From Tridacna crocea (lineage: Eukaryota > Mollusca > Bivalvia > Cardiida > Cardiidae): a stretch of DNA of 64,000 bases. Every line of letters starts with the position of its first letter. Position 1 is the stretch's first letter. This document shows, one piece after another, positions 12,184 through 42,086 of the stretch. A program made the position numbers and the translations under genes. The stretch lies in assembly GCA_943736015.1 (NCBI GenBank), contig OX031070.1:41874173-41938172 (forward strand), given 5' to 3'. The notes beneath the pieces were generated by a model. That model was not told the origin of the DNA. It worked only from the letters and a program-made list of their open reading frames with translations, and ran no database searches.

Positions 12184-12412
12184 TTAACCCTTTACTCCAT
12201 AGATACTCATTTCTACACATTGGCTGTAGGAGTCTTTGGAAAACATTGTGACAAAAGGTGAAATTGCTCGTGACGAGCAATTTCACCTTTTGTCACAATG
12301 TTTCCTATGCTATCAAAAGGTGTCATATACACATAAGAAATGGCTTCATCCTTGGTGTTATTTAGAGTCAGTTAGAGATACCATAGAAATGCTTTATGGC
12401 GTAAAGGGTTAA
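12184..12412 (+). mobile_element. HP2 MITE, full length
   Basis: TTAACCCTTTACTCCATAGA to GGCGTAAAGGGTTAA. The hairpin has GTGAC / GTCAC where the other HP2 copies have GTGGC / GCCAC, a mirrored change. Body words CATCCTTGGTGTTATTTAG and GATACCATAGAAATG. Confidence 0.
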
Positions 12413-13327: not shown

Positions 13328-13666
13328 ACATCAAAGAGTATTGGTTAATTGGAGTGATTAGCAGAAGCACCAAAGTTATGGCATGAGCAGCAGGTTCAAG
13401 ATAATCACTAATGAGATAATCATCCAGGGAGAAATATATACAAACATTTACTGTCATTTGGACTGGTCAGTCACAGCTGTCAATCAGATAGGGTGGTAAC
13501 TGTCAATCATTTTGAGTAAGGTGAAAGGTCAGAGGCTTGCCATGTTTAGGCTGAGCATTATATTTGACCTATCTGACAGTATTTCTGGTTTTCCTCAGGT
13601 CAGTTGGCATTCTGTGTATATGGTATCTGGGCTACTTCAGTATATCCAGTTGCAGAGGTCCTCTGA
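13328..13666. other. Gap: no recognised feature
   Basis: Unique-looking sequence. Confidence 0.
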
Positions 13667-13876
13667 TTAATCCATTACCACACAATCCCTTCTTTTTATG
13701 AATAAAACATTGTTGGAAAAGGAGAAAATGCTGGTAACCAGCATTTTCTCCTTTTCCAACAATGTTTTATACCCTTCACAAAACAAAATTCAAATTTTCA
13801 GTCACTTTTATTAGGTCGTCTGCAAATGTTTTAGATTTGGACAGACCAAAATTTTGTTGGTTTGGTAATGAGTTGA
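13667..13876 (+). mobile_element. HP1 MITE with mirrored hairpin changes
   Basis: Arms read ATAAAACATTGTTGG and CCAACAATGTTTTAT: both departures from consensus are mirrored. Head proximal part shortened. Confidence 0.
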
Positions 13877-14059: not shown

Positions 14060-14161
14060 TTCAATGAGTGAGTTATTCAATGGAACATAATCTTCATCCG
14101 CGTTTTTACTCTTGGTTTGAACTTGTTTTCTTTTCATAAACAATTGGCCATGTTAGAATCG

Positions 14162-14328
14162 AAATTATCTTCTTTCTATCGTGGTGTATCGTTCAATAAA
14201 CCACGTTGTGAGTTATGAGGCGCAATGAATAACCCAATGAATATCGCCCTCGTGGATTATTTATTGCGCCGCATAACTCACAACTGTGGTTTATTGAACG
14301 ATATACCACGATAGAAAGAAGATTATTT
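14162..14328. mobile_element. Foldback element with about 72-bp arms (FB5)
   Basis: Left arm 14162-14233 (TTCTTTCTATCGTGGTGTAT...) pairs with 14257-14328 (...ATATACCACGATAGAAAGAA) across a 23-bp loop. Related words (TTTCTATCATGGGTTATCATTC) occur at 13930-13960, suggesting a larger nested element. Confidence 0.
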
Positions 14329-14376
14329 CTTAAATAAAACACAGTTGTGAGTAACATGAGACACAATAGACAATCC

Positions 14377-17439: not shown

Positions 17440-17555
17440 TAACCCTGAACCATTTGACTAAATTTTATACCCACTCAATTTGAATGCCTTGCAGATGAAA
17501 CAAAACAATTTATGCCTCAAGAATAGAAACACAAGATTGTGTGGTAAAAGGTTAA
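17440..17555 (-). mobile_element. HP deletion derivative without hairpin
   Basis: Tail AACCATTTGACTAAATTTTA joins CTCAAGAATAGAAACACAAG and head TTGTGTGGTAAAAGG. A second copy of the same derivative is at 18090-18177. Confidence 0.
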
Positions 17556-17556
17556 G

Positions 17557-17785
17557 TAAACCCATTACCTCAAAATCCCTACTTTTGACGCCCCTGAGAA
17601 AGAAGCCTATAGAAAACATCGTGGGAAAAGGAGAAAATGCTGGTAACCAGCATTTTCTCCTTTTCCCACAATGTTTTCTACCCTTCACAAAACAAATCTC
17701 AAATTTTCAGACACTTTTGTTTTGTCGCCTGCAAATGCTTTCAATTTGGACAAGTCTAAAATATTGTCGTTTGGTAATGGGTTAA
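17557..17785 (+). mobile_element. HP1 MITE, young
   Basis: Near consensus; right TTAA shared with the next. Confidence 0.
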
Positions 17786-18010
17786 CCCATTACTACACAA
17801 TCCCTACTTTTGACGCCCCTGAGGAAGAAGCCTTTTGAAAACACTGTGGGAAAAGGAGAAAATGCTGGTAACCAGCATTTTCTCCTTTTCCCACAGTGTT
17901 TTCTACCCTTCCCAGAACAAATTTCAATTTTTCAGTCACCTTTATTTTGTCGTCTGCAAATGCTTTCAATTTGGACCAATCTAAAATTTTCTCGTGTGGT
18001 AAAGAGTTAA
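17782..18010 (+). mobile_element. HP1 MITE, young
   Basis: Near identical in translation to the copies at 59689 and 61248; mirrored CACTGTGGG / CCCACAGTG arms. Confidence 0.
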
Positions 18011-22811: not shown

Positions 22812-23015
22812 AAGTGAACCCTTGACTGAGCACTCCCAAGTTTTTTAGCAACCTTGAGGAGATGGCATCTGAAAATGTTGTGGGAAAAGGAGAAAACACT
22901 GATAAAACAGTGTTTTCTTCTTTTCACACAACTTTTTAGAGACACATCCCATCCTTTTGGTCATTTTGATCTGATGTCTGCAAAAGCTTCCAATATGGAT
23001 GGGTCTAAAATTAAG
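22812..23015 (+). mobile_element. HP1 MITE, old, with altered stem tip
   Basis: AAAACACTGATAAAACAGTGTTTT replaces the usual AAAATGCTGG/CCAGCATTTT: both arms changed alike. Confidence 0.
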
Positions 23016-27465: not shown

Positions 27466-27824
27466 ATCCTCGGATACCCCAGGGTCTCCCTATATGCTAC
27501 GCTACATCGACCCTGGGACAATTGACTAATAAAACTTTGAATCAGCCGCCGAAAATCGATACTAAACGTCATACCGTACAGTACACTCGCCCATCACAAA
27601 ATGATGATAGAACCAATGAAAAGCCAGCATTTGGCCAGCGGTAAAGCGAGCCGCCGAAAATCGATACGAAACGTCATAGCGTACAGTACACTCGCCCATC
27701 ACAAAATGATGATGGAACCAATGAAAAGCCAGCATTCGGCCAGCGGTAAAGCGAAGGAAATTCAACTAATTGTCCCAGGGGTCGATGTAGCGTAGCAAAT
27801 AGGGAACCCGGGGTATCCGAGGAT
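27466..27824. mobile_element. Mutator-like MITE (359 bp)
   Basis: Terminal inverted repeats of about 57 bp begin ATCCTCGGATACCCC and end GGGGTATCCGAGGAT. An exact 11-bp target duplication, GGATCAAACCC, flanks it (27455-27465, 27825-27835). The long repeats and 9-11 bp duplication fit the Mutator superfamily. No transposase. Confidence 0.
27545..27754 (+). repeat. Two 105-bp tandem units inside the MITE
   Basis: Units start GCCGCCGAAAATCGATAC at 27545 and 27650 and differ at only a few bases. Confidence 0.
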
Positions 27825-31515: not shown

Positions 31516-31742
31516 AACCCATTACCACACCATCCCAAATTTTTACACCTCTGTGAAAGAAGCCTTTTGAAAACATTTGTGGGAAAAGGAGAAAATGCTA
31601 GTAACCAGCATTTTCTCCTTTCCCACAATGTTTACTCCCCTGTCAAAGAAAAAGTTCACGATTTGAGCCACACTGAAATTGTCGTCTGCATTTGCTTTCA
31701 ATTTGGATAGTTCTAAAATTTTGTCGTCTGGTAAAGAGTTAA
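31515..31742 (+). mobile_element. HP1 MITE
   Basis: AACCCATTACCACACCATCC; right TTAA shared with the next. Confidence 0.
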
Positions 31743-31968
31743 CTCATTACACCACAATCCCTACTTTTGACGCCCCTAAGAAAGAAGCCTTTGGAAAACA
31801 TTGTTGGAAAAGGAGAAAATGCTGGTAACCAGCATTTTCTCCTTTTCCCACAATGTTTTCTACCCTACCCAAAACAAATTTCAAATTTTTTAGTCACTTT
31901 TATTTTGTCGTCTGCAAACGCTTTCAATTTGGACCAGTCTAAAATATTGTCGTTTGGTAATGGGTTAA
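31739..31968 (+). mobile_element. HP1 MITE, young
   Basis: TTAACTCATTACACCACAAT to GTTTGGTAATGGGTTAA. Confidence 0.
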
Positions 31969-35887: not shown

Positions 35888-36212
35888 AAGTCTTTATAAA
35901 ACAAAATTTTAAACTGGTCCAAATAGAAAGCATTTACAGAAGGGACATTTTAGACTGGCCCAAATTGAAAGCATTTGCAGAAGGGGCACTTGTACTAAAT
36001 TTAGCTGACATGATGGTAACTTTTGGTGATTGTGTAGAAAACATTGTGGGAAACAGGAGAAAATGCTGGTTACCAGCATTTTCTCCTGTTTCCCACAATG
36101 TTTTCTACCCTTCTCAAATCAAATTTTGATTCTCTGGTCACGTTTACTTTGTCATCTGCAAATGCTTTGAGTTTGGACAAGTCCAAAATTTTGTAGTTTG
36201 ATAAAGAGTTAA
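35888..36212. mobile_element. HP1 derivative with two tails and a duplicated end
   Basis: Left TCTTTATAAAACAAAATTTT and right ATTTTGTAGTTTGATAAAGAG are both tail-type. About 45 bp of the left arm is duplicated (35899-35943, 35944-35986). The hairpin has mirrored extra bases, GGGAAACAGG / CCTGTTTCCC. Confidence 0.
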
Positions 36213-41893: not shown

Positions 41894-42086
41894 ATTGTTA
41901 CCAAACGTCAAAAATTTAGATTCGTCTAAATAGGACGCGTGCACAGAATGCAATTTTGGTGTTGCCCAAATAAAGCAACTCATCTTTTTAAAAGGTAGAA
42001 AACATTTTGGGAAAAGGAGAAAATGCTGACTTCCAGCATTTTCTGCTTTTCCCAAAATGTTTCCAAAAGTCTGTTTTCTTACACCA
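41890..42086 (-). mobile_element. HP1 MITE, head lost
   Basis: TTAAATTGTTACCAAACGTC; hairpin with mirrored ATTTTGGG / CCCAAAAT. Confidence 0.

Follow-up and report, generated by a model that had tools for sequence, protein, structure and literature searches.

Mirrored arm changes beyond independence in the hairpin of an abundant TTAA-flanked MITE of Tridacna crocea

The hairpin carried inside an abundant TTAA-flanked MITE of Tridacna crocea shows mirrored changes, in which both arms carry complementary replacements, beyond what independence predicts and in copies with differing bodies. Copies of this hairpin decay mainly by changes in a single arm, and other mirrored states are inherited by subfamilies. 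The results were obtained from the window, i.e., the whole stretch of 64,000 nucleotides analyzed here (C15:41,874,173–41,938,172), from copies sampled elsewhere, and from genome-wide pattern counts over 1,048,827,098 bases on 31 contigs. The account leaned towards here is rare templated correction from arm to arm after single-arm mutation, with active copies also propagating hairpins that are mostly paired.

The repeat unit is about 225 bp long, starting with TTAA-CCCTTTACCACA and ending with TGGTAAAGAG-TTAA. Among 240 full copies the TTAA columns at both ends are conserved at 82–91%, as a TTAA target-site duplication. Of the two ends, the left one, TTAA-CCCTTTACCA, agrees with CC[C/T]T, the terminal motif given for such inverted repeats in PMC2872659; the consensus right end, TTAA-CTCTTTACCA, does not strictly fit it, and single copies vary. 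On these sequence features the repeat is called a piggyBac-type TTAA-flanked MITE with a right end that is not strictly motif-conform. It is short and non-coding, its length leaving no room for a transposase, and the whole window holds seven open reading frames of at least 110 aa, the longest of 146 aa. Searches gave no Rfam match at the gathering threshold and no tRNA. The MITE accounts for 176 matches in the window covering 30,458 of the 64,000 bases, or nearly half, and for 199 matches over about 33 kb (about 17%) in 20 stretches of 10 kb each. One of these adjoins the window and the other nineteen lie at round positions; the share is 15% when the adjoining stretch is subtracted. Scaled up, the 1.05-Gb genome would hold roughly one million copies or fragments of the repeat. 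The family moved recently, since two copies on contigs C1 and C18 (L035 and L052) hold an identical 225-bp element with clean TTAA ends at different TTAA sites and with different flanks. Two full copies sharing a common TTAA lie head to tail at 17555–18010 on the forward strand, the first unit of which served as the first search query, and a second head-to-tail pair with the same period of about 225 bp is present at 31516–31968. The window also contains a separate inverted repeat at 14161–14329 with 44-nt arms that are 95% complementary, 81 nt between them and no MITE match, and a 105-bp unit in two tandem copies with 96% match at 27544–27754.

The consensus hairpin is a 67-bp internal palindrome made of a 33-bp arm, a centre base A and a second 33-bp arm, with pairs numbered d1–d33 outwards from the centre. 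Each pair was scored as changed on the left only (L), on the right only (R), on both sides in complementary form (M, mirrored) or on both sides in non-complementary form (O). The headline copy (13667–13876, forward strand) runs from TTAA at 13667–13670 to TTGA, a decayed TTAA, at 13873–13876, with nhmmer matches at 13669–13870 and 13665–13875. By sequence, fold and comparison with the consensus, its left arm (13702–13735, forward strand) carries G-to-T at d22 and at d33, and its right arm (13737–13770, forward strand) carries the complementary changes. The arms are perfectly complementary over 34 bp around a 1-nt centre A at 13736, and the DNA fold of the hairpin has an energy of −38.1 kcal/mol (z −13.2). 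The initial annotation had described TTGG/CCAA (d22) and ATAAAACA/TGTTTTAT (d33) as replacing the family consensus in this copy and had listed further mirrored examples; the description is correct, and so are the examples at 12239–12305, 22892–22917, 36034–36108 and 41995–42065 (d24) as well as the CACTG variant (d26). Among seven relatives of the headline copy the d22 change is mirrored in two, right-only in two and left-only in three, and when the eight were compared mirrored d33 was found in the window copy alone.

The further examples are of several kinds. The hairpin at 12239–12305 (forward strand) belongs to a subfamily with many changes, d3C, d8T, d13T, d20C and d21A all being mirrored around a centre G. 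The inner hairpin at 22892–22917 (forward strand) has mirrored d6 G-to-A and d7 T-to-C and is the sole copy with mirrored d7C among 377 sampled copies. At 36034–36108 (forward strand) a mirrored inserted C (AAACAGG/CCTGTTT) gives perfect arms of 37 bp in the sole such copy among 334 sampled; its exact 45-nt core is also found at three other places, and the two of these that were fetched have other bodies in which the core was apparently reached by substitutions. The hairpin at 41995–42065 (reverse strand) carries mirrored d24 G-to-T (ATTTTGGG/CCCAAAAT), a state present in six copies of the tree described below with six origins. The centre base in 334 copies was A in 252, T in 40, G in 26 and C in 4, and 12 copies had none.

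The sample gave 502 matches, 377 of them spanning the hairpin. It is non-random: besides the window it comprised 23 stretches of 10 kb, namely three neighbouring ones and 20 set at round positions (one adjoining the window), and seven loci found through their similarity to the headline hairpin. Scored pair by pair, the 377 copies held 748 left, 794 right, 214 mirrored and 103 non-complementary changes. After 43 copies with an arm shorter than 24 nt were left out, the left arms of the remaining 334 carried 1101 changes and the right arms 1129, with 207 common to both arms in mirrored form. Single-arm changes are far commoner than mirrored ones, and copies decay mainly by unpaired changes. Five variants (d26C, d8T, d3C, d13T and d20C) make up 116 of the 207 mirrored changes, with d3C, d8T, d13T and d20C mirrored in 22, 30, 12 and 12 of the 334 copies, respectively. 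Among changes seen in no more than five copies per arm, 374 occurrences were confined to a single arm and six were mirrored, vs. 1.0 expected. These six comprised an insertion, a substitution and four deletions, and two of the deletions start at the centre, so that each may be a single deletion across it.

The covariation between paired positions that the initial annotation had suggested computing is in clear excess for the subfamily variants (mirrored d26C in 40 copies vs. 9 expected, d8T in 30 vs. 3.6) and marginal otherwise. When six variants (d26C, d8T, d3C, d13T, d20C and d10C) were left out, 94 of the 197 remaining doubly changed pairs were complementary, against 85 expected from single-arm spectra and 84 from within-site shuffles, and 94 was reached in 235 of 5000 base shuffles. 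Co-change at true pairs was 1.76 times that expected under independence, compared with 1.43–1.68 times for pairs slid by one to three positions. Both results are close to what independent mutation alone would give, with both members of a pair struck in old copies. The sample alone carries the claim of mirrored change only as far as the subfamily variants, and because its covariation is weak outside them, counts were made across the genome.

Inheritance was examined with a FastTree tree of 400 copies built on body columns only (162 columns), after 86 of 486 rows with fewer than 100 body columns had been dropped, including one each of d12A, d12T, d12C and d10C. The minimum number of origins was 11 for mirrored d26C (45 tree copies; 43 with shuffled labels), 2 for d8T (17 copies; 17 shuffled), 5 for d3C (13 copies; 13 shuffled) and 9 for d10C (19 copies; 19 shuffled). 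For these four mirrored variants inheritance is the main source. The hairpin at 12240 belongs to the multi-change subfamily, and CACTG, a common variant, corresponds to d26C and likewise marks a subfamily. The initial annotation had named descent of all mirrored changes from a few source subfamilies as the finding that would speak against its claim, and such descent was found for the 116 of 207 changes in the five variants and not for the rest. Clustering on the tree was seen for 3 of 5 mirrored variants vs. 2 of 84 single-arm variants, at a threshold of six copies that mirrored variants reach mainly if inherited; the figure for body variants, 76 of 297, is partly circular since the same columns built the tree. 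Among 20 fetched copies with mirrored d10C, 17 lay closer in body to the d10C type than to the consensus of the family, and three (L095, L103 and L113) had another body type. The inheritance of d10C was picked up both in these bodies and on the tree, so the test can detect inheritance. Recurrent d10 A-to-C change was accordingly rejected as a candidate, the variant being mostly one subfamily.

The genome-wide counts used exact patterns with the rest of the core perfect, which reduces the problem of copy age. Perfect 43-nt cores numbered 114,471. Among cores perfect but for the change in question, mirrored d17 A-to-C was found 19 times vs. at most 1.07 expected by independence and mirrored d10 A-to-G six times vs. 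at most 0.41, together 25 vs. at most 1.5. Control doubles, with the d17 change on one side and the d10 change on the other, were found twice in each arrangement, four in all, vs. at most 1.31 expected, and the comparison of mirrored with control doubles gave a binomial probability of 0.0002. Mirrored changes amount to about 1.4% of the single-arm changes for d10 A-to-G and 2.7% for d17 A-to-C, or roughly 1–3%. A mirrored one-base deletion at d14/15 showed no clear excess, with two copies genome-wide vs. about 0.6 expected; the first 30 Mb of C1 have 16 single-arm deletions listed, which extrapolates to about 550.

Doubly changed single pairs were counted in the same manner. With 33 bases held perfect and both sides of d17 free, 248 copies were found, and in the first 100 listed 69 were complementary (GC 37, TA 21, CG 11). 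For d12, 76 were complementary in the first 100 listed of 407. When partner bases were shuffled at d17 and d12, about 37 complementary pairs were expected, with a maximum of 56 in 20,000 shuffles. For d10, 93 were complementary in the first 100 listed of 273 (88 C-G, 2 G-C, 3 T-A), and each of the seven non-complementary ones shares one of its two bases with the C-G type; the C-G doubles are mostly one subfamily. The lists are ordered by contig, these first hundreds reaching from C1 to C6 for d17, C1 to C4 for d12 and C1 to C6 for d10. Left-only d17 changes number 2637, and scaling by the sample counts (79 vs. 60) gives about 150,000 perfect 35-nt cores; on these figures about 46 d17 doubles would be expected if the right rate equalled the left. 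Complementary doubles exceed expectation about 10-fold and non-complementary ones, about 77 of the 248 by extrapolation, about 2.6-fold, so that differences in age inflate doubles of all kinds.

The initial annotation had stated that independent mutation would not produce such mirrored changes, which the subfamily variants and the genome-wide counts at d17, d12 and d10G bear out and the sample remainder supports only marginally. Independent mutation as the sole cause is contradicted, unless these sites are exceptional, by the age-controlled doubles at d17 and d12 and by the 25 mirrored copies set against four cross-site controls, and it is considered very improbable. Palindromes are difficult to sequence and to assemble. 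An artefact of assembly or polishing, by which reads or corrections of one arm were applied to the other, could draw on that difficulty, but single-arm mismatches are kept in the assembly by the hundred to thousand and mirrored states are common to subfamilies of many copies, and this explanation is the one given the least credence of all.

All 19 mirrored d17C and all six mirrored d10G copies with otherwise perfect 43-nt cores were fetched with their bodies, along with 12 of 37 listed d17G, 8 of 21 d17T, 20 of 88 d10C, 7 of 38 d12A, 7 of 22 d12T and 6 of 16 d12C copies. The set without d10C comprises 65 mirrored copies. A further 24 served as controls: eight singles had the d17C change and six the d10G change in one arm, and 10 copies were taken from the 31 non-complementary ones listed for d17. 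Mean pairwise body distance within a mirrored type, d10C excepted, was 0.28–0.41, compared with 0.27–0.33 for singles and non-complementary copies, 0.21–0.24 for sample copies with perfect cores and 0.23 for d10C. The minimum number of origins equalled or nearly equalled the number of copies on the tree (d17C 18 for 19, d17G 12 for 12, d17T 8 for 8, d10G 6 for 6, d12A 6 for 6, d12T 6 for 6, d12C 5 for 5), and fetched copies of all these types scattered over the tree as in shuffled labels. Among the 65, one pair of bodies with the same change was identical (L035 and L052), the next, L048 against these two, was 7.8% apart, and the next after that 12%. One young body type, with copies 6.5–10% apart, carries four mirrored changes: d17C in L035, L052 and L048, d10G in L054, d17G in L084 and d12T in L137. 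This speaks for an origin of the changes after the type had spread. At one locus (G000:C5:16680058-16680450) three mirrored d17G hairpins lie 179 bp apart, probably through local tandem duplication.

In the remaining arm pairs of the 65 mirrored copies, 25 further changes were mirrored, 2 were non-complementary and 97 affected a single arm, compared with 1, 1 and 40 in the 24 controls (Fisher 0.006). One copy, L076, has three mirrored changes at d17, d19 and d21, and two others, L078 and L108, have adjacent mirrored changes. The extra mirrored changes would follow simply if a stretch of one arm were copied onto the other; inherited lineages with several changes would fit as well.

Such lineages are at the centre of a rather unlikely alternative, in which every mirrored change is inherited. 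The sources would be numerous, some large and some small, each being selected for a paired hairpin, and individual copies would undergo no templated correction. This alternative agrees with the inheritance of the largest mirrored classes, with the finding that single-arm variants hardly ever mark lineages, with the co-occurrence of several mirrored changes as in the 12240 subfamily, and with the greater distance of mirrored-group bodies from the consensus (0.17–0.27) than of perfect-core sample copies (0.147). Because mirrored copies mostly have diverged bodies, their sister copies may have decayed past the reach of an exact-core search, and small source lineages with decayed sisters could thus mimic recurrence. 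The alternative has to accommodate a single identical pair among the 65 copies, a tree test that does detect the inherited d10C type, and origins as numerous as copies for most types, which would call for very many lineages with about one recognizable copy each.

The initial annotation had also claimed that the arms outlast the flanks in old copies. In 468 close pairs of 84 copies this was true of the inner 43 nt (divergence 0.029 vs. 0.082 in base-matched body) and untrue of the outer arms (0.089 vs. 0.081); between close relatives, divergence in the core d1–d21 (consensus columns 74–116) is lower than in base-matched body by a factor of 2.8. Arm-to-arm correction as the cause of the slow core was rejected by reasoning, because unbiased correction leaves divergence from the source unlowered. 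Exchange between copies would fit a slow core, and so would a lower mutability. Exchange has been considered as a reading of the mirrored changes themselves: mirrored cores that originated on a few occasions would have been carried into many bodies when ectopic conversion or recombination acted around the hairpin, which would also have homogenized the core. The restriction of slow divergence to the core and the three of 20 d10C copies found in another body type are in its favour, yet the linkage of hairpin and body is kept in the other 17 and also in d8T and d26C. Donors of mirrored d17C number about 1 in 6,000 cores (19 vs. 114,471 plus), so that near-complete decoupling of core and body would be needed, and, by eye, the mirrored d17C copies share no common outer-arm variants apart from the identical pair. 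Spread by exchange is therefore held to be improbable.

Under the favoured reading of rare arm-to-arm correction, a single-arm mutation would leave a mismatch in the palindrome, and occasional fold-back of DNA synthesis or template switching would copy one arm onto the other. Such copying would either make the change mirrored or erase it, erasure being invisible, and would take neighbouring differences along as a tract. Amplification would then pass on mostly paired hairpins, whether through selection of hairpins during transposition or through correction in active copies, and some mirrored states would thereby become subfamily markers. The identical element of L035 and L052 carries mirrored d17C and one unpaired d24 mismatch. 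Its presence at two TTAA sites means that mirrored alleles of this kind do transpose, and the common mismatch means that a mismatched hairpin can transpose as well, pairing being no absolute need. Taken together the data suggest that the MITE needs, or keeps, a paired hairpin for amplification. The initial annotation had proposed arm-to-arm templated correction or selection on folding, and a coupling of the arms is supported by d17C and d10G above independence and controls in scattered bodies; the events are rare per copy and prove neither cause. A bolder form of the reading, in which mismatches are regularly resolved by arm-on-arm copying in individual copies and new lineages start from hairpins that are mostly re-paired, is plausible but somewhat doubtful. 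If it is true, template-switch mutation and a filter on hairpin pairing would jointly drive the evolution of subfamilies, and the rate and tract length of template switching could be measured on the copies, which would provide about 100,000 natural replicates.

It has long been asked how paired stems come to change on both sides while avoiding a long unpaired stage. Template-switch correction in RNA hairpins, with compensatory changes of the stem, has been proposed by Monttinen and Loytynoja (2022; PMC8794818). As in that work, copying of one arm onto the other would restore pairing in one event and might carry several neighbouring changes; unlike the RNA genes and reconstructed ancestries used there, the present case is a MITE hairpin of about a million copies in which events are countable. 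Single-arm, mirrored and mismatched states can be counted directly in some 114,000 otherwise perfect copies, whereas alignments of RNA genes hardly allow such an estimate of rate. Non-identical inverted repeats of yeast, as presented in the accessible part of PMC8604942, likewise have arms made more alike by template switching, there in the evolution of yeast genes and here in a transposon family. Among titles and the beginnings of abstracts in open-access PMC text, no account of a MITE whose arms change in mirrored form was recognized. Palindromic motifs at the ends of piggyBac and piggyBat, members of the same TTAA-inserting superfamily, are bound by cysteine-rich domains of the transposase according to the available portion of PMC11707139; the piggyBac palindrome is 19 bp and that at the left end of piggyBat about 14 bp, compared with 67 bp lying well inside the 225-bp element here. 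The CMITEs of Acropora resemble the present family by description in having TTAA target sites, piggyBac-type ends and tandem arrays, and also have about 75 internal bases that are better conserved than the ends, but they are about 100 bp long with about 1600 copies in A. millepora, and no word beginning with hairpin or palindrom is found in the available text of that report (PMC2872659). Overall, the process is a known one, and its setting in a million-copy MITE with countable events appears to be new within the open-access literature searched.
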